Shown: positions 1 through 10,527 of the stretch, piece after piece
Layout of the letters: each line of letters starts with the position of its first letter
Numbering within the stretch: the stretch's first letter is position 1
From: a bacterium
GTDB taxonomy: Bacteria > CG2-30-53-67 > CG2-30-70-394
Reading direction: 5' to 3'
DNA: 10,644 bases
Assembly (NCBI GenBank): GCA_024278555.1
Contig: JAJRSX010000005.1
Location: 1 to 10,644 of the forward strand
Notes under the pieces: generated by a model
The model's database searches: none
What the model was told of the DNA's origin: nothing
The model's input: only the letters and a program-made list of their open reading frames with translations
Program-made: the position numbers and the translations under genes

Positions 1-92
1 CCCAAACCATGGGCCGCGGATTTTGGGGTCACGGATTTTGGGGTCATGACCCCAAAATCCGTGACCCCAAAATCCGCGGCCCATGGTTTGGG
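1..92. repeat. Perfect 92-bp palindrome (46-bp arms, no spacer)
   Basis: Base i pairs with base 93-i across the whole stretch, with the centre between 46 and 47 (gtca|tgac). Each arm holds two tandem copies of a 15-bp unit, GGATTTTGGGGTCAY, at 18-32 and 33-47, mirrored in the other arm. The outer part (cccaaaccatgggccgc) contains its own CCATGG palindrome. The element may continue beyond the left edge of the window. It ends 3 bp from the hypF stop codon, so a transcript leaving hypF would fold into a 46-bp hairpin; there is no U-tract of a classical terminator. It could be a REP-like or miniature mobile element, or a transcription-blocking cruciform. The structure is certain and the role is unknown. 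Confidence 0.9.
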
Positions 93-95
93 GGC

Positions 96-2366
96 TCAGG
101 CGCCGCCCCGGGCCGCCGCCTCGACCGCCTGGCCGTAGCTGAGGCCGGCGTCGTTGGCGGGGATGCGGGTGGCGAGGAGGAGGTCGAAGCCCGCCGCCGC
201 GAGCGCCGCCGCCGCCTGTTCGGTGAGCAGCCGGTTCTGGAAGCAGCCGCCGGTGAGGCCGACGGTCTCGACGCCGGTGTCGTCGCGCACCACCTTCGCT
301 TGGGCGACGATCGCGGCGGCGAGGGTGGTGTGGAAGGAGGCGGCGCGCTCGGCCACCGAGAGGTGGCCGTCGAGAAGCATGGGTAGGAGCGGGCCCCAGT
401 TGGTGCGCCAAAGGCCATCGTCGGTGCGTGCCAGAGGGAGGGGGATCGCCGCGCCCACGGCACCGCCCGCCGCCGCCTCCAGGAGCATCGGCCCCTGCCC
501 CTCGTAGGTGGCGGTGAGGCAGAGGCCGGTGAGGGCGGCGGCGCCGTCGAAGAGGCTGCCGGCGGCGGTGGTGGTGAAGCGGTTGACCCCGCGCGTCCAG
601 GCGTGGTGCAGGAGCGCGCGGTCGCCGGGGAGGTCGGGCCACGATACCCCCGCCTCCCAGCAGAGGCCGGCCGCCGCGCGCCACGGCTCGCGGCCGGCGC
701 GGTCGCCCCCGGCGATGCGGAAGGGGCGCAGGGTGGCGACCCGTTGCCAGGCGCCGGGGCGCCCGAGGAGGGCCTCGCCGCCCCAGGCGGTGCGGTCCGG
801 GCCGAGGCCGGTGCCGTCCCAGGTGAAGCAGAGGATCGTCCCCGCCACCCCGTGCTCCCCGGCGAGGGCGGAGGCGTGGGCGTGGTGGTGGTAGACCGGG
901 ACCACCGGCAGGCGGCGGCCCCGGGCCCAGCGGGTGGCGGTGTAGCGCGGGTGGGCGTCACACGCGAGCCATTGCGCCTCTACCCCGTAGAGGGCCTGGA
1001 GGTCGTGGGCGACCTGCTCGAAGACCGCCAGGCCGCGCACCGTCTCCAGGTTGCCGATGTGGGGGGAGACCACCGCCCTCCCCTCCCAGGCGAGGCAGAG
1101 GGTGTTCTTCTCCTGGCCACCCACGGCGAGGAGCGGCTCGGCCACCGGGAGGGGCAGCTCCGCCTCGGCCGGGGCGCAGCCGCGGCCGAGGCGGAGGGGG
1201 CGCGGCTCGCCTTCGATGACCCGAAAGAGGGGGTCGTCCGCCGGCCGGAGGATGGGGCGGTTGTGGTGGAGGAAGCGACCGGCCACGTGGCGCAGCCGCC
1301 CCTCGACCTCGGCCGGCTCGGTGAGGACCGGCTCGCCGGCGACGTTGCCGGAGGTCGCCACCACCGGAGAGGAGAGCTCCCCCAAGAGCAGGTGGTGGAG
1401 CGGCGAGTAGGGGAGCATCACCCCCACCTCGGCCAACCCCGGGGCGATCGCCTCCGGGAGGGGCCGGCTGCCGCCGCGGGCCACGAGGCAGATGGGGCGC
1501 ATGGGATCGAGCAGGCAAGCCGCCTCGGCCGCGCTGGGGGCGGCGATCCCGCGCACCCCGTCGAGGCCATCCGCGCCCCGTTGCGGGACCATCACCGCCA
1601 GGGGTTTGTCCGGCCTCGGCTTGCGCTCGCGCAGGCGGGCGATCGCCGCCTCGTTGTAGGCGTCACAAAGCAGGTGGTAGCCGCCGATGCCGCGCACCGC
1701 GACGATCTCGCCGCGGCGGATCGCTGCCGCGGCGCCCGCGAGGGCGGCGGTGGTGTCCTCGATCGTCGGGCCGCTGCCGTCGGTAAAGGCGAGGTGGGGA
1801 CCGCACACGGGGCAGGCGAGGGGCTGGGCGTCGAAGCGGCGATCCAGCGGCTCCTCGTACTCGGCGCGGCACTCGGGGCACAGCGGGAAGCGCGCCATGG
1901 CGGTGTTCGGCCGGTCGTAGGGGAGGCGGGCGATGATCGTGTAGCGCGGCCCGCACTGGGTGCAGTTGATGAACGGGTAGCGGTGGCGGCGGGCGTGGGG
2001 GTCGGCCATCTCCGCCAGGCAGTCGTCGCAGCAGAACTGGTCCGGCCCCACGTGGGCGTCGCGCGCCGCCCCGGCGCGCGACGCCTCGATGCGAAAGCCG
2101 TCGAGCCCCTCGACCGCGGCCTCCTCCACCGCCGCCACCGCGGGCCGCGCCAGGGGCGGCGCCTCGACCACGATCGCGGCGACAAAGCGCGCCACCGCCG
2201 CCCCGTCACCCTCGATGTGCGCCTCCACCCTCCCGGCCTGGTTGCGCACCCAGCCGGCCACCCCGCAGGCGTGGGCGAGGCGGTAGAGGAAGGGCCGAAA
2301 GCCGACCCCCTGGACCCGGCCGGTGACGGCCACCCGAAGGCCGATGGTTGGGTTGCGGTCGTCCAT
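96..2366 (-). CDS. hypF: HypF, carbamoyltransferase of [NiFe]-hydrogenase maturation
   Basis: HypF uses carbamoyl phosphate and ATP to carbamoylate the C-terminal cysteine of HypE, the source of the CN ligands of the [NiFe] site; it acts in the cytoplasm. All four domains are visible in 756 residues, close to the usual ~750. The acylphosphatase domain has RVQGVGFRPF (Arg24) and Asn42. Two zinc modules use C113/C116 with C135/C138 and C163/C166 with C185/C188. A YrdC-like domain spans about 200-385, with PDKPLAVMV. The Kae1-like domain has HHHAH (493-497), FTWDGTGLG, SLFDG and GGCFQNRLL (707-715). I chose ATG 2366 because MDDRNPTIGLRVAVTG matches the family N-terminus. An in-frame TTG at 2426 abuts a GGAGG with no spacing, so it is a poor start, yet ATG 2366 has no clear ribosome site either. 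No other hyp gene is in the window. It follows the selenoprotein gene on the same strand. Confidence 0.96.
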   Translation of the reverse strand: MDDRNPTIGLRVAVTGRVQGVGFRPFLYRLAHACGVAGWVRNQAGRVEAHIEGDGAAVARFVAAIVVEAPPLARPAVAAVEEAAVEGLDGFRIEASRAGAARDAHVGPDQFCCDDCLAEMADPHARRHRYPFINCTQCGPRYTIIARLPYDRPNTAMARFPLCPECRAEYEEPLDRRFDAQPLACPVCGPHLAFTDGSGPTIEDTTAALAGAAAAIRRGEIVAVRGIGGYHLLCDAYNEAAIARLRERKPRPDKPLAVMVPQRGADGLDGVRGIAAPSAAEAACLLDPMRPICLVARGGSRPLPEAIAPGLAEVGVMLPYSPLHHLLLGELSSPVVATSGNVAGEPVLTEPAEVEGRLRHVAGRFLHHNRPILRPADDPLFRVIEGEPRPLRLGRGCAPAEAELPLPVAEPLLAVGGQEKNTLCLAWEGRAVVSPHIGNLETVRGLAVFEQVAHDLQALYGVEAQWLACDAHPRYTATRWARGRRLPVVPVYHHHAHASALAGEHGVAGTILCFTWDGTGLGPDRTAWGGEALLGRPGAWQRVATLRPFRIAGGDRAGREPWRAAAGLCWEAGVSWPDLPGDRALLHHAWTRGVNRFTTTAAGSLFDGAAALTGLCLTATYEGQGPMLLEAAAGGAVGAAIPLPLARTDDGLWRTNWGPLLPMLLDGHLSVAERAASFHTTLAAAIVAQAKVVRDDTGVETVGLTGGCFQNRLLTEQAAAALAAAGFDLLLATRIPANDAGLSYGQAVEAAARGGA

Positions 2367-2452
2367 GGCGGCGTCGACGAGGAGTCTGCCACGCGGCGCA
2401 CCCGCGCACCGCCGGGCGACGGTCAACCTCCGGTGAGCTCCCTACCGCCCGA

Positions 2453-2797
2453 TCATCCGAGCCCGAGGAGCTGCCGGTAGACCGCCTCATCCCACCCGGC
2501 GACGACCCCGGCGGGGGTGACCAGGGTGGGAGCGCGCAGCGTGCCAGAGCGGCCGAGGAAGGGGGTGACGAGCTCCTTGTCGGTGAGGCCGGCACCCGCC
2601 GCGGGCAGCTCCACCACCGTGCGGCCGCGCTTCGCGAAGAGGGCCGTGGCCACACGCAGATAGACGATCGCCTCCTCCGGTGCCACCGGGTGGAGGCGGA
2701 CGTCGTGGTTCTTGTAGGCCACCTGGTTGCGCAAGAGAAACTCCCTTGCCGGTCGGCAGCCGCTTCAAGAGCGGTTGAAGAAGATGATCTCGGACAT
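2453..2797 (-). CDS. Thioredoxin-fold (ArsC/glutaredoxin-like) selenoprotein, UGA read as Sec
   Basis: Seen: from ATG 2797 the frame reads MSEIIFFNRS, then TGA (2765-2767), then SGCRPAREFLLRNQ and on to a stop at 2453, giving 114 residues if TGA is selenocysteine. That places U11-S12-G13-C14 after the first beta strand, where redox thioredoxin-fold proteins have CXXC; the following R-x-A-x-x-F-L resembles the ArsC/Spx group. The likely cis-proline is in LRAPTLV (Ala89-Pro90), and the protein ends WDEAVYRQLLG. There is no other cysteine. GAGGAG at 2807-2812 sits 9 nt before the ATG. A SECIS-like hairpin follows the UGA. The gene lies 39 nt after dcd, so co-transcription is likely. Without recoding only the part from TTG 2734 is callable; that start leaves a fold with no active site, and its apparent ribosome site is one strand of the hairpin. 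Inferred role: thiol-disulfide or selenol redox chemistry, substrate unknown. Alternative: a nonsense-mutated pseudogene, less likely given the hairpin and selC. Confidence 0.88.
2731..2749 (-). promoter_or_regulatory. Bacterial SECIS element
   Basis: In the mRNA, nucleotides 16-34 after the in-frame UGA form GCAAGGGA, loop GUU, UCUCUUGC: eight continuous pairs with one G-U. The loop begins with G and lies 24-26 nt after the UGA. Bacterial SECIS elements, as known from fdhF and SelB binding, need an upper stem, a small apical loop with a G in its first positions, and a loop roughly 16-37 nt from the UGA; all hold here. The element lies inside the coding region, as is normal in bacteria. Confidence 0.8.
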
Positions 2798-2806
2798 CTC
2801 GCTCTG

Positions 2807-2812
2807 CTCCTC
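2807..2812 (-). promoter_or_regulatory. Ribosome binding site of the selenoprotein gene
   Basis: GAGGAG with a 9-nt spacer before ATG 2797. It decides the start over the in-frame ATG at 2830, which lies only 6 nt after the dcd stop and has no good Shine-Dalgarno sequence; using that ATG would add 11 residues (MPGAHHEEQSE). Confidence 0.65.
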
Positions 2813-2836: not shown

Positions 2837-4369
2837 TCAGATCCGCGGCAGGGTGACCCCCTGTTGTCCCTGGTACTTGCCCTGGCGGTCGGCATAGGAG
2901 ACGGCGCACTCCTCGTCCGCCTCGAAGAAGAGGACCTGGGCGATCCCCTCGTTGGCGTAGATCCGCGCCGGCAGGGGCGTCGTGTTCGAGATCTCGATGG
3001 TCACGAACCCCTCCCAGCCGGGCTCGAAGGGGGTTACGTTCACGATGATGCCGCAGTTGCTCACGAAGACCCCTGCTTCAAGGGCGAAGTTCCCGGCCTC
3101 GGGGACCGTGAGGCAATAGACGTCGTGGTCGCCGGCAAGCTCGCGGATCGCGACTACCTTGTGGTTGGTGTGACCCCGAAACGACTGCACCACCTCGGGG
3201 AAGCGGCGGAAGACCGAGCGATCGCACCCGAGTGACCGAGCGGCGCCGTGAATCGAGCCGGTCTCGTCCAGGGCGCGGCGAATGAGGTCGTCGGTGATCT
3301 CCCGGCGCAGGCGCAGGTTACGAGCCACCTCCGCCTGACTCGCCCGCCGGCTCCCATCGTCACCCGCCCAGGCCTGTCGCATCCGCTCCGCCTGCAAGAC
3401 CCGCTCGAGCGGATCGCGGTAGCGGGCCCGCCAAGCCGGATCCTCCGCCCGCCGCGCGAGCGACTCGCGGATCGCGGCGCCGTGCTCCTCGCCGTCGAAG
3501 CCCGCACCATAGGTCTCGGCGTTGTGCATTCGGATGTGCTCACCGGCATCCATACGCACGAGGTTCCAGGGGCGGTTGTTGCGCCGGTCTCCGTCGAGGT
3601 GGTGGCGATGGGTCCCGGGGGCGTCTTCGTAGAGTCCGTGGCGCAGGTTCCATTCGTCCGCGAGACGATGGGTCGCGAGGAGGTGGCCGTCGAGGGGCTG
3701 GTAGACCTGCTCGTAGCCGCGCGCCACCTGACGGTAGAGGGGCATGAGCGAGCTGCCCGGCCGCAGCTCCGCCGCCGTGACCATGCGTCCATCGCGCCGC
3801 ATGAGTTCGTGGTCCGGGGTGCAGCGGATGACCTCGCCGTTGTCGAGCGCGACCTCCAGGAGGGCGTCGCGACCGATATAACGAGGTGCGTCGAGGTGGG
3901 TCACGATCAGCCCGCCATGCGGCCCGATGCTGTAGCCCCAGAAAAGCTCCCCGCCCTCGGCGCGGCGCGCCATCTCCTCCAGGGTCGGCGACGAACCGTC
4001 CACCAGGGCGACCCGCGTATCGCCCCGAAAACATCGCGCGTAGGTGGATTTCCCCAGGCAGATCGCCAGGACATTCCGCGGCATGCGGAAGTACTCCACC
4101 GTGTGGGCGAGGGCGAAGGAGTTGGGCGGCACGATGCAGACATCGGTCTGCACGTCAACGAAGGAGGCGGGATCGAAGGCCTTGGGGTCGACGACCGACG
4201 AGTTCACGTTGGTGAAGATCTTGAACTCGTCGCCCACCCGGATGTCGTAGCCGTAGGAGGAGACACCGTAGGAGACGACCCCCTTGCGGACCTGCCCCTC
4301 CTCGAACGGTTCGATGAGGCCCCGGGTGCGGGCCATCTCGGTGATCCAGCGGTCGGATTTGATGGACAT
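2837..4369 (-). CDS. dcd: dCTP deaminase with an in-frame intein
   Basis: Dcd converts dCTP to dUTP, the first step to dTMP in most proteobacteria. The precursor is 510 residues. Residues 1-112 and 439-510 join to a 184-residue deaminase, close to the usual ~188, beginning [13 protein letters not shown] and ending [20 protein letters not shown] (106-112) corresponds to the E. coli Ser111-Arg115 loop, and the Glu of TIEISN to catalytic Glu138. Intein residues 113-438 split the protein directly after the conserved Arg112, so activity should depend on splicing. ATG 4369 is chosen over TTG 4390 because MSIKSD is the family N-terminus. The start lies 4 nt after the stop of the upstream membrane-protein gene, which suggests an operon with coupled translation. 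There is no internal stop or frameshift, and both exteins look intact. Confidence 0.96.
3056..4033 (-). other. Intein in Dcd with HNH homing endonuclease, 326 residues
   Basis: The intein begins with Cys (CFRGDTRV, block A; precursor residue 113) and ends GVFVSN with Cys439 as first C-extein residue. Block B is CTPDHEL with Thr184 and His187. Block F is [15 protein letters not shown] and block G is GVFVSN/C. Cys1, TxxH, terminal Asn and Cys+1 make a class 1 cis-splicing intein likely. Two features are less common: the penultimate residue is Ser rather than His, and the fourth block F position is Cys rather than Asp. Between the splicing halves is an HNH-type nuclease, HHLDGD...[10 protein letters not shown]...EHIRMH (about 254-283). 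It is followed by a basic stretch and a helix-turn-helix (about 358-391, [12 protein letters not shown]), as in modular homing endonucleases. All expected nuclease residues are present, so the endonuclease may still be active. Confidence 0.95.
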
Positions 4370-4373
4370 GGGC

Positions 4374-4847
4374 TCAGGCGTACTCCGCAAGCTCGATGAG
4401 GAAGATGGCGGCGACGGCGAGCACCAGGGTGACGCCGGTGTAGAGGTTCATGCGGCGCAGATGGTACGCGGCCTCGTCGTTTCTCTCCAGATCGCCGCCG
4501 CCGCGCAGGAGCGCCTGCATGGCCAGGTGGTGGCGAAAGTAGAGCATCACGTAGACCAGGAAGAGGAGCGCCACCACCCCCATCTTGGCGGCGAACCACC
4601 GGCCGAAGGGGAGGCGGAAGCGGCCCAGCGGGACGGTGGTCGGCGCGAGGACGAGGCCGGTGACGGTGACGAAGGTGAGCGACGCCCACCAGAGGGCGGC
4701 GCGCACCCGCAGGGCCGCCCACAGGGTCTCCCGGCCGGTGCGGGTGGAGAGGCGACACGGCGGCAACAGCGCCGCCGCCATCGTCCCCAGCCAGAGGGCG
4801 GCCACCGCCACGTGGAGCCCGTGACCCCCTGCCCAGAGCCAAGCCAT
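4374..4847 (-). CDS. Four-helix inner-membrane protein, CopD-like
   Basis: The protein has 157 residues with four predicted membrane segments at about 9-29, 51-72, 84-105 and 135-154. The first carries [15 protein letters not shown], with two histidines and a Trp of the kind seen in CopD/HemJ-like small membrane proteins. RWFAAKMG leads the third segment, and HH follows it at the membrane edge. There is no signal peptide apart from the first helix. ATG 4847 is the natural start; only a G-rich run precedes it, with no clear ribosome site. Its stop lies 4 nt before the dcd ATG, so it is probably the first gene of the cluster with dcd, the selenoprotein gene and hypF. Copper transport or haem-linked redox work is a family-level guess; the function is unknown. 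The gene is real, given its start position, overlap-free packing and membrane pattern. Confidence 0.85.
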
Positions 4848-4965: not shown

Positions 4966-5580
4966 ATGCCCCCCGCCGAACACCACGTCGAGATCGCCCA
5001 CGCCTTCACCGAGGCGCGCGCCGCCTCCACCGTCGACATGGCCGCACGGGTGCGCGACCTCCTCACCGCGGTGGGCGAGGACCCGGCGCGCGAGGGGCTG
5101 ATCAAGACCCCGGAGCGGGTGGCGAAGTCGCTCCGATTTCTCACCAAGGGGTACGAGGAGGACCCGGTGGAGGTCCTCAACGAGGCGATCTTCACCGACG
5201 CCTACGACGAGATGGTGATCGTCAAGGATATCGACTTCTTCTCCCTGTGCGAGCACCACATGCTCCCCTTCTTCGGCCGCTGCCACATCGCCTACATCCC
5301 CAACGGCAAGATCGTCGGCCTGTCGAAGCTGGCGCGGATGGTGGAGATCTACTCCCGCCGCCTACAGGTCCAGGAGCGGCTGGTGACCCAGATCGCCCAC
5401 CTCATCGACGACCTCCTGGAGCCCAAGGGGGTGGGGGTGATCATGGACGCCACCCACCTGTGCATGGTGATGCGCGGCGTCGAGAAGCAGAACTCCACCA
5501 CAGTCACCTCCTGCATGCTCGCCGACTTCCGCGACTCAGAGACCACCCGGGCGGAGTTCCTGCGCCTGGCGGGGTATTAG
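4966..5580 (+). CDS. folE: GTP cyclohydrolase I (FolE)
   Basis: FolE converts GTP to 7,8-dihydroneopterin triphosphate, the first step of tetrahydrofolate synthesis, as a cytoplasmic zinc homodecamer. The 204-residue product is of normal length. Zinc ligands are Cys95 and His98 ([12 protein letters not shown]) and Cys166 (THLCMVMRG). The catalytic histidines correspond to His97 and His164. [19 protein letters not shown] and LQVQERLTxQI-like [11 protein letters not shown] are the usual helix signatures, and the C-terminus [15 protein letters not shown] is complete. The gene is transcribed away from the dcd cluster and faces the methyltransferase gene ending at 5786. I see no preQ1 or tetrahydrofolate riboswitch in the short leader. 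Confidence 0.97.
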
Positions 5581-5785
5581 AGGGCATGGTCTCTTTGGTT
5601 ATTGGTGCGGACCGGGAGACTCATGCATGGCCTGGCCGACATCTCTTCGCCACCTGACGCTCCGGAGCCGAGTGGTCCCCCCCCACGTGGCATGGGCGCG
5701 GAGCAGCTCCCTTTCGGTGCCCTTCCGTGGATTCCGTGGCTATTCCCCTGTCGGGCGGCAGACCAGTCCCGGTCTCCCGATTGCC
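5581..5785. other. Convergent spacer with repeat remnant
   Basis: The spacer between folE and the RlmI-like gene holds no credible reading frame. It contains GCTCCGGAGC (5659-5668), CCACGTGG (5683-5690) and, at 5723-5741, a 19-nt match to the repeat block at 10494-10512. I found no hairpin with a U-tract, so terminators for the two converging genes are not identified. Confidence 0.5.
5723..5741 (+). repeat. Dispersed repeat segment, copy 1
   Basis: TTCCGTGGATTCCGTGGCT is an exact reverse complement of 10494-10512. The preceding bases (cctttcggtgccc) resemble the cccttccgtgtct that precedes it in the other copy, with indels, so the shared unit is about 33 bp. It is composed of repeated CCGTGK words, a type of degenerate intergenic repeat seen in many bacterial genomes. 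Confidence 0.75.
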
Positions 5786-6619
5786 CTACGCCTCCCACGC
5801 CACCCGCGCGTAGCAGCCGCTCGGCAGCGGCCGCGGCCCCTCGACCACCATCTCCCCCGCCTCGATCCGGCCCCCCGGCGGCGTGGCGTCGGCGGCGAGG
5901 TTGGCGAGGACACCGGGGGTGATGCCCGGGGTGTGGGCGGAGAGGAGAATCAACCTGGGCTGCTCCGCCAGGAGCGCCCGGCAGGCGGCGAGCAGCCGGG
6001 TGAGGTCGCGCTCCAGCTTCCACACCTGCCCCTTGGGGCCGCGGCCGAAGGTGGGGGGATCGAGGACGATCGCCTCGTAGCGGTGGCCGCGGCGGCCCTC
6101 CCGCTCGACGAACTTGAGGGCGTCGTCGACGATCCAGCGGATCGACTCCAGCCCCGCCTCGCGGGCGTTCTCCGCCGCCCAGTTAACCACGCCGCGCACC
6201 GCGTCCACGTGGGTCACCTTGGCGCCGGCCTGGGCCGCGGCGAGGGAGGAGCCGCCGGTGTAGGCGAAGAGGTTGAGGAGGCGATCGCCCTGGCGCACGG
6301 TGTCGCGCAACCACTGCCAGTTCGCCGCCTGCTCCGGGAAGAGGCCGAGGTGGCCGAAGGGGTTGGGCCGCATGAGCAGCCTGAGGCCGCCGTGGGTGAC
6401 CCACCACTGCTCGGGCACCGGGCGGGCGAACTCCCACCGCCCTTCCGTTTCGCCGCTACCGACGTGGCGGCCGTGGGCCGCCCCCCACGCCGACGCGTCC
6501 AACGACCGGCGCCACAGGGCGGTCGCCTGCTTGCGCGCCAGGACCACCTCCCCGAACCGCTCCAGCCGCTCGCCGCCGCCCGCGTCGAGGAGGGCGTAGG
6601 TCTCGCTGTCCATGGGCAT
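5786..6619 (-). CDS. Class I SAM-dependent methyltransferase, RlmI/RlmL-like
   Basis: The 277-residue protein resembles the catalytic part of the 23S rRNA methyltransferases RlmI and RlmL/K. The N-terminus ETYALLDAGGGERLERFGEVVLAR matches the lead-in domain of stand-alone members. Motif I is LLNLFAYTGGSSLAAAQAGA (114-133), with the SAM-ribose acid at Asp139 in THVDA. Motif IV is IVLDPPTFGRGP (184-195). The PUA domain of RlmI is absent, so the RNA target cannot be assigned; SAM-dependent methylation of RNA, probably rRNA, is a family-level inference. ATG 6619 has another ATG two codons later and neither has a Shine-Dalgarno sequence. The gene begins 30 nt after the CCA end of the tRNA-Sec gene on the same strand, so its mRNA may be released by tRNA processing. 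Confidence 0.87.
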   Translation of the reverse strand: MPMDSETYALLDAGGGERLERFGEVVLARKQATALWRRSLDASAWGAAHGRHVGSGETEGRWEFARPVPEQWWVTHGGLRLLMRPNPFGHLGLFPEQAANWQWLRDTVRQGDRLLNLFAYTGGSSLAAAQAGAKVTHVDAVRGVVNWAAENAREAGLESIRWIVDDALKFVEREGRRGHRYEAIVLDPPTFGRGPKGQVWKLERDLTRLLAACRALLAEQPRLILLSAHTPGITPGVLANLAADATPPGGRIEAGEMVVEGPRPLPSGCYARVAWEA

Positions 6620-6649
6620 CGACGCTGGCGGGGATAGTGCGGGTCAAGG

Positions 6650-6747
6650 TGGCGGGAGTGCATGGGAATCGAACCCACCCGGGACCGCTCGCGCGGCCCC
6701 ACAACGGTTTTGAAGACCGCGGCAGCCACCAGGCCGCATCCACTCCC
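6650..6747 (-). tRNA. selC: tRNA-Sec (anticodon TCA), CCA encoded
   Basis: The 98-nt gene has the hallmarks of selenocysteine tRNA. The anticodon loop is CTTCAAA with a GCGGT/ACCGT stem (anticodon at 6711-6713). The D stem has six pairs (GCGGCC/GGCTGC) around a 4-nt TGGT loop. The long variable arm is GGGGCCGC-GCGA-GCGGTCCC, nearly the E. coli selC sequence. The T arm is GTGGG-TTCGATT-CCCAT. The acceptor is GGGAGTGG against GCACTCCC: seven pairs hold and the eighth is G-G, where the bacterial standard is eight pairs. Discriminator G is followed by CCA. selA, selB and selD are not in the window. It shows that the organism can read UGA as selenocysteine, which supports the selenoprotein call at 2453-2797. 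Confidence 0.97.
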
Positions 6748-6754
6748 GGGCACC

Positions 6755-6783
6755 AGCGTAGCCGCTCCCCCGGAGGGGGACAA
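6755..6783 (-). promoter_or_regulatory. Possible sigma70 promoter of selC
   Basis: TTGTCC (6778-6783) and TACGCT (6755-6760) are separated by exactly 17 bp, and the -10 hexamer ends 7 bp before the first tRNA base. This would start the transcript at or just before the mature 5' end. The spacer contains a TCCCCC-gga-GGGGGA stem (6766-6780) that could also slow transcription leaving the ATPase gene. Neither hexamer is strong. Confidence 0.4.
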
Positions 6784-6789
6784 CGCGAC

Positions 6790-8040
6790 TCAGCCGCGCC
6801 CGGTCGTGCCGAGACGCCACACACTGCTGATGGGCAGGGCGTGGAGACGCGGCCCGAAGGCGAGCCGTTCCTTCCCCGTATAGAGGAGGACGCCACGGTG
6901 GAAATCCTCGCCACACATCTCGGCAAGGGTGCGTAGACCGCGGAGGTCACGCTCGCCCAGGGTGGAACGCGACTTCACCTCGATGCCGACCACCCGTCCC
7001 CCCTCGTCCTCCAGCACGAGGTCCACCCCCCGGCCCGCGTCGGTGCGAAAGTGACACAGCCGCGCCGCCGTGCGGCTCCAGCCGAGCTGTTTGCGAAGCT
7101 CCATGGCGATGAAGTTCTCCAACAACGGGCCGGCATCGCCCGGGTGGCCGGCCAGCCCCCGCGCGGTCCAGCCGGCGAGGTGCGCGAGGAGCCCGGTGTC
7201 GCCAAAGAGGAGCTTCGGCGCCTTCACCAACCGCTTCGAACGATTACGCGACCAGGCCGGAAGACGCCACAGGAGGAAGGTGTGCTCGAAGAGGGCGATA
7301 TACCGCTTGAGGGTCGTCTGTGGCAGGCCGGCACTACGTGCAATCTCGCTATAGTTGAGCGGCCCGGTGGCGCGGACGGCGAGGAGCTGGAGGAGGCGCG
7401 GCAGCTCGGCGAGCCCCTCGATCCGCGCCAGATCGCGCACCTCCCGTTGAAGAATCGTGGCGATGTAACCCCGAAACCACGCCGCACGCCGCCGCGCCTT
7501 CCGCGCCACCGCCTCCGGATACCCCCCCATCAGGGCACGCCGTAGACAGGCAACACGATCCTCCGCCTCGTTCTTCCACGGGGGCAGGCGAGCACGGAAA
7601 CAGGCATCGACGAAGCTACCCCGCCGCCCCTCGATCTCGCCCACGGAGAGGGGCCACAAGGTCACCACCTCCATACGCCCCACCAGGGCGTCGGCCAGAC
7701 GCGGCATGGCGAGGACATTCGCCGAGCCGGTCAACAAGAAACGCCCGGCCTTACGACCACGATCGACCACCTGTCGCAGGACGGTGGCCAGTGCAGGGAT
7801 CTGCAGTACCTCGTCGAGGATCACAGGGCCCTGAAAATCGTCGAGGAAGGCCCCCGGGTCCGCATGGGCCGCGGCGAGCGTTGCCGGGTCATCGAGGCTG
7901 AGATAGCGCGCCGGAAAGGCGTCCCCGATCATCGACTTCGCCAGGGTCGTCTTGCCGCACTGACGTGCTCCCACGAGGAGAACGACCGGCGTATCCGCCA
8001 GGGCCTCCAAAACCACGGTGTCGAGGTTGCGCGGAAACAT
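6790..8040 (-). CDS. AAA+ ATPase with DUF4143 C-terminal domain
   Basis: The protein has 416 residues from ATG 8040. Walker A is GARQCGKTT (24-32), the Walker B region is PVILDEV (72-78), and a sensor-like LLTGSAN lies at 102-108. The middle, with a winged-helix-like NYSEIARSAGLPQTTLKRYI segment, leads to the DUF4143 part, LLFGDTGLLAHLAG. Near the end, VDLVLEDEGGRVVGIEVK gives Asp340...Glu354-x-Lys356, the pattern of PD-(D/E)XK nuclease folds. Such proteins are common, patchily distributed accessory ATPases of unknown role; toxin-antitoxin, defence or mobile-element links have been proposed. An in-frame TTG at 8076 would overlap the putative -10, so ATG 8040 is preferred, though no ribosome site precedes it. 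It stands alone between thiO, which is divergent, and selC. Acquisition by transfer is possible; I see no flanking repeats. Confidence 0.9.
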   Translation of the reverse strand: MFPRNLDTVVLEALADTPVVLLVGARQCGKTTLAKSMIGDAFPARYLSLDDPATLAAAHADPGAFLDDFQGPVILDEVLQIPALATVLRQVVDRGRKAGRFLLTGSANVLAMPRLADALVGRMEVVTLWPLSVGEIEGRRGSFVDACFRARLPPWKNEAEDRVACLRRALMGGYPEAVARKARRRAAWFRGYIATILQREVRDLARIEGLAELPRLLQLLAVRATGPLNYSEIARSAGLPQTTLKRYIALFEHTFLLWRLPAWSRNRSKRLVKAPKLLFGDTGLLAHLAGWTARGLAGHPGDAGPLLENFIAMELRKQLGWSRTAARLCHFRTDAGRGVDLVLEDEGGRVVGIEVKSRSTLGERDLRGLRTLAEMCGEDFHRGVLLYTGKERLAFGPRLHALPISSVWRLGTTGRG

Positions 8041-10449: not shown

Positions 10450-10492
10450 GGGGGAGGTGGCCCGGGGGATGGCGTCGCCGGGAAGGCCATTT

Positions 10493-10527
10493 GAGCCACG
10501 GAATCCACGGAAAGACACGGAAGGGAA
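10493..10527. repeat. Dispersed repeat segment, copy 2
   Basis: GAGCCACGGAATCCACGGAA continues AGACACGGAAGGGAA. The 19 nt at 10494-10512 are the exact reverse complement of 5723-5741. Inside, CCACGGAA, ACACGGAA and CCACGGAA-like words repeat every 8-9 bp, and AGCCACGG recurs at 10531. Confidence 0.75.

Follow-up and report, generated by a model that had tools for sequence, protein, structure and literature searches.

Selenocysteine (Sec)-containing proteins that resemble the arsenate reductase ArsC have been on record since 2005-2008 (PMC1088965, PMC1794560, PMC2398784). One group of them, the "arsenate reductase-like protein, UxxC," is tabulated with the NCBIfam model NF041106 in a 2026 review (PMC13188914) and is also listed, without the model number, in PMC9312934. 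The model itself, ArsC_rel_Se_1 or "ArsC family (seleno)protein," carries a curated cut-off of 85 bits. Among the proteins related to this group, Escherichia coli ArsC requires three arginines, Arg60, Arg94, and Arg107 (PMC3169414), and Gly52 of Spx is essential for binding the C-terminal domain of the RNA polymerase alpha subunit (PMC3386922).

The stretch of DNA analyzed here, referred to as the window, comprises 10,644 nucleotides (contig JAJRSX010000005.1) and is contig 88 of a 3.06 Mb bacterial genome in 211 contigs. On its minus strand, a gene at 2797..2453, present in one copy in this genome, very probably encodes a 114-residue selenoprotein in which the UGA at codon 11 is read as Sec, as judged from the sequence and its relatives. 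Because the UxxC group and the Sec-containing ArsC-like proteins are already in the literature, the window protein counts as a divergent representative of an established kind, the UxxC selenoproteins of the ArsC/Spx fold.

Gene Structure and the In-Frame TGA

The features of the window on which the analysis draws are as follows.
96..2426, minus strand: hypF, hydrogenase maturation carbamoyltransferase, the downstream gene (Pfam HypF domains; same place in the sister species)
2453..2797, minus strand: predicted selenoprotein gene (translation with TGA as U; an orthologue of 77% identity has the same TGA)
2731..2749, minus strand: SECIS-type hairpin GCAAGGGAGUUUCUCUUGC, at a distance of 18-36 nt counted from the U of the UGA (register and covariation; fits the published bSECIS model)
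2765..2767, minus strand: predicted Sec codon TGA, residue 11 and first position of UxxC (the same alignment column holds TGA in 12 genes and TGC in one)
2807..2812, minus strand: GAGGAG ribosome-binding site, 9 nt 5' of the ATG (read in the sequence; likewise before the ATG of the orthologue)
2837..4390, minus strand: dcd, dCTP deaminase interrupted by an intein, the upstream gene (Pfam DCD, Intein_splicing)
6650..6747, minus strand: selC, tRNA-Sec with anticodon TCA (ARAGORN; Rfam RF01852 at 77.2 bits, gathering score 47)

Translation of 2797..2453 gives MSEIIFFNRS-TGA-SGCRPAREFLLRNQVAYKNHDVRLHPVAPEEAIVYLRVATALFAKRGRTVVELPAAGAGLTDKELVTPFLGRSGTLRAPTLVTPAGVVAGWDEAVYRQLLGLG, a 114-aa product that begins MSEIIFFNRS-U11-SGC14RPAREF and ends LGLG-stop. 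The frame contains a single internal TGA (2767-2765), and its terminal stop is a second TGA (2455-2453). The original prediction had placed a natural N-terminus and a ribosome site ahead of the internal TGA, which the translation and the upstream GAGGAG bear out, and had warned that gene calling from TTG 2734 would lose the active site. This warning was correct: mechanical ORF calling without recoding gives as its longest frame a 93-aa ORF starting at that TTG, which is missing the first strand together with the UxxC motif.

A single close relative was found, the same-genus orthologue on contig MNYW01000152.1 of Nitrospirae bacterium CG2_30_70_394, the other genome of the genus; a search of genome contigs returned that sister species alone. 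The orthologue has the TGA at the same codon, the GAGGAG, dcd and hypF as neighbors, and selC on the same contig. Codon-level conservation between the two near the UGA is significant inside the gene (p 0.0007). Their first 28 codons are nearly identical, but hypF and folE hold equally conserved 28-codon stretches, so this near-identity is weak support and not the main evidence. The gene is absent from the six other genomes of the phylum, although selA, selB, and selD are present there, and the window-type subgroup is confined to one genus among the genomes searched.

The SECIS-Type Hairpin and Probable Selenocysteine Decoding

The published model of the bacterial SECIS element describes a loop of 3-9 nt, a stem of 4-16 bp, a G at loop position 1 or 2, a distance of 16-37 nt from the UGA, and an MFE <= -7.5 (PMC13188914). 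The window hairpin, with 8 bp and a GUU loop (or 7 bp and AGUUU), a spacing of about 23 nt, and an energy of -12.7 kcal/mol, agrees with every item of this model. Its folding energy is not better than that of shuffled sequence (z 0.18 and -0.49), and the hairpin is rated above chance because relatives keep its register and show covariation, not because of its energy. The register is identical in 12/12 TGA genes of the first set. There, 84.5% of the hairpin cells are base-paired, against 61.4% for shuffled sequences (0/500), and in six of seven pairs both partners have changed in a compensatory way. Covariation scores 0.716, compared with 0.264 in shuffles (0/500), every slid register is worse, and a separate pairing count gave 64/77 against 47.6 (0/20,000 arm swaps). 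The G of the loop (+26, window 2741) never varies among the 12 TGA genes or the 22 further distinct sequences, and the Cys form of the family (L005) has neither the hairpin nor the loop G. The hairpin that had been predicted at 2749-2731 is confirmed in this way through its relatives rather than its energy.

The hairpin also contains GGGAG just 5' of the in-frame TTG (window 2734-2749, minus strand), and a shorter second product may start from TTG 2734.

The decoding set of selA, selB, selC, and selD is complete in the genome. SelA (541 bits, cut-off 268), SelB (326 bits, cut-off 242), and SelD (357 bits, cut-off 125) all score above their curated cut-offs, SelD carrying a TGA of its own in CAGUASKV, and the selC noted nearby from the sequence was recovered by both ARAGORN and the Rfam model. 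None of the three outcomes named in the original prediction as refuting it was thus observed: codon 11 is TGA or Cys in all relatives aligned, the hairpin is conserved, and the genome does not lack selA or selB. SelB and Sec-tRNA would bind the hairpin, with the loop G at 2741, and insert selenocysteine at codon 11. A general code change for TGA was ruled out as an explanation, since TGA is the ordinary stop of both the selenoprotein gene and dcd.

Predicted Fold and Comparison With Known Redox Proteins

The AlphaFold2 model of the window protein is confident (pLDDT 92.7, pTM 0.86). It predicts a core of thioredoxin/glutaredoxin type into which helices are inserted after the first beta-alpha-beta unit and ahead of the cis-Pro loop LRAP. 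The extra segment before LRAPTLV, which the original prediction had left unexplained, was identified as this helical insert of ArsC/Spx folds. Among solved structures, the model most resembles the ArsC-related 3gkx (Z 10.2), followed by Spx 3gfk (Z 9.7); glutaredoxin-like chains rank lower, as does E. coli ArsC (Z 7.4). A search of PDB sequences with the family profile gave Spx chains as the best matches (E 2.6e-11).

Spx of Bacillus subtilis (1z3e, 3gfk) shares the fold and carries a CxxC where the window protein has UxxC; in the profile alignment, Sec11 and Cys14 fall on the CxxC redox pair Cys10/Cys13 of Spx, and the original prediction had put Sec at a redox-motif position. The window protein differs in having Sec for Cys10 and in keeping neither Gly52 nor the Arg ahead of the cis-Pro, and it is not known to contact RNA polymerase. 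Around Spx Gly52, the family has a four-residue deletion, and no Gly aligns there. The cis-Pro is preceded by Ala89 in the window protein and by Ala or Ser throughout the family, whereas Spx and the YffB/ArsC-related relatives have RP where the window protein has AP. E. coli ArsC (1i9d) and YffB (1rw1, 2kok) likewise share the fold with its helical insert and the cis-Pro loop, but have a single Cys in contrast to UxxC, and Arg in place of Ala before the cis-Pro. The ArsC arginine triad is not kept, as judged at the Arg before the cis-Pro (Ala89), the position on which the Arg60/94/107 comparison rests. No further ArsC/Spx-type protein scored over the cut-off in the host genome.

The first 40 residues of the window protein are similar to the UXX-star glutaredoxin-like selenoproteins (NF041212, NF041114) and to Sec glutaredoxins, whose models differ in having about 70 positions and no helical insert. 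Assignment to these groups was rejected because the matches stop at residue 43, where the NF041212 match (21 bits, cut-off 66) also ends.

Relationship to the NF041106 Family

The original prediction could not name a family with certainty; the group is that of the ArsC/Spx-fold UxxC selenoproteins represented by NF041106. This model is the best curated match of the window protein (54.1 bits, E 2e-14, residues 6-107), although the score lies below the cut-off of 85 bits. A search of 290 genomes with NF041106 returned 11 members over the cut-off, all of which align full-length with the window protein; 10/11 have one in-frame TGA at the Sec position and 1/11 has TGC, the Cys-form member (L005) reading YYRRSGCNTC. 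Across the orthologue and these 11 members, position 11 holds TGA or Cys and nothing else. The invariant columns of the alignment are U/C11, C14, G82, G85, L87, R88, P90, and G101, and the window protein carries the signature U/C-x-x-C plus GxxGxLR[AS]P. In one other phylum, a family member was found in 70/84 genomes searched, with an in-frame TGA in all 70. Two genera of family f41 (in the phylum of genome G046; e.g. L046-L075) carry a Sec-containing NF041106-type member in nearly every genome, an unusually constant selenoprotein for one lineage.

The likeness of the window protein to NF041106 lies in the place of UxxC, the full-length alignment, the motif G-[RPS]-[ST]-G-x-LR[AS]P, and the hairpin register. 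It differs in its 19-30% identity to the family and in reading FFNRS-U-SGC where the family mostly has YxRxG-U-x-[ST]-C. In the tree, the window pair and the family together are separated from four outgroup rows of Spx/YffB type with support of 99/98, and the window pair forms a long sister branch to the 36 other sequences (support 88/83 for those 36), so that its placement inside or beside the NF041106 family is not firm. Since the score is below the cut-off, the window protein is filed as a sister lineage of NF041106 and not as a member. That the two sequences of the genus represent a separate, undescribed ArsC/Spx-fold selenoprotein family with a substrate of its own is possible, if somewhat doubtful. 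Current annotation would overlook such a family, whose sequences reach no curated cut-off and are cut short at the TGA.

Gene Neighborhood

No partner gene is conserved across the family in 20 gene contexts (at one of them, L088, the family gene was not located by pattern), so the neighborhood offers no guide to the substrate. Nucleotide genes adjoin some members, with dcd at the window and, by eye, thyX at L011 and L080 and purN/purA at L083, but inconsistently. At another locus (L094, genome G314, about 5095-6842), a selA-like gene, recognized by eye from its N-terminal sequence, lies directly upstream of a family member and is the only link to selenium genes among the 20 contexts.

Several further observations concern the window itself. 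The dcd intein is about 325 aa long, extending from the Cys in TYAR^CFRGDTRV to VSN^CGIIV, and matches Pfam Intein_splicing (8e-13) and, weakly, HNH_3. The sister species has dcd without the intein (193 aa), which makes its presence a polymorphism of the genus; a cyanophage dCTP deaminase with a self-excising intein is already known (PMC6293099). Window positions 1-92, at the very end of the contig, form a perfect inverted repeat of 46 bp without spacer, which is either a repeat element or an assembly fold-back. A similar intergenic motif, CCGTGGATTCCGTGGCT, occurs at 5727-5750 and 10490-10525 on opposite strands and looks like a dispersed repeat.

Proposed Role and Rival Explanations

A U-C pair that starts helix 1 beside the cis-Pro loop matches the arrangement in thiol-disulfide oxidoreductases. 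In the predicted fold, Sec11 and Cys14 open helix 1, at the site of the Spx CxxC, and the window protein is likely to act as a cytosolic Sec-dependent thiol-disulfide oxidoreductase. The Sec selenolate would attack an oxidized substrate, and Cys14 would then close a selenenylsulfide, to be re-reduced by glutathione or thioredoxin as the putative donor; the genome encodes glutathione synthetase (gshB) and thioredoxin reductase (trxB).

Both named functions of the fold are disfavored by the Ala before the cis-Pro and the loss of the Spx Gly52. In a Sec-dependent arsenate reductase, Sec11 would replace Cys12 of ArsC, with glutathione or glutaredoxin as the reductant. The fold held in common with E. 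coli ArsC, a weak hit to the Pfam ArsC model (22.5 bits, cut-off 24), the name given to related Sec proteins in surveys (PMC1088965, PMC2398784), and the glutathione synthetase in the genome are consistent with this role. ArsC needs its arginine triad (PMC3169414), however, and here Ala89 stands in for the Arg preceding the cis-Pro, which makes arsenate reduction unlikely; UxxC with a resolving Cys is moreover a redoxin/Spx motif, no ars genes were found within the window, and the role is on balance highly improbable. The Spx chains that head the PDB sequence matches and stand among the best structural ones, together with the alignment of Sec11/Cys14 with the Cys10/Cys13 redox switch, would instead suit a transcription regulator that senses redox state and whose U-C pair switches binding to the RNA polymerase alpha subunit. 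This reading too is very unlikely, as the site of Gly52 (PMC3386922) falls in the four-residue deletion with no Gly, Ala replaces the Arg before the cis-Pro, and the TIGR01617 score is 30.8 bits against a cut-off of 75.

Were the TGA instead a true stop or a sequencing error, the real product would be the 93-aa protein from TTG 2734, whose reading frame is open, is kept in the relative, and has GGGAG a few bases 5' of its start. Yet the TGA is common to two species differing by 23% of residues, homology runs upstream through it, the shorter protein would be without beta1 and the active site, and relatives carry TGA or Cys at this place with a covarying hairpin; a product of this kind as the sole explanation is hardly credible.

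Significance

The window protein very probably places a Sec-containing protein of the ArsC/Spx fold in a candidate lineage of bacteria. No curated model names it there, and standard gene calling strips its active site. The covariation adds evidence for a SECIS element common to distant families. The window protein broadens the sequence range of the NF041106 group and would be useful for retraining the model, in a family whose function is putative throughout, yet which has a member in 70/84 genomes of one other phylum.
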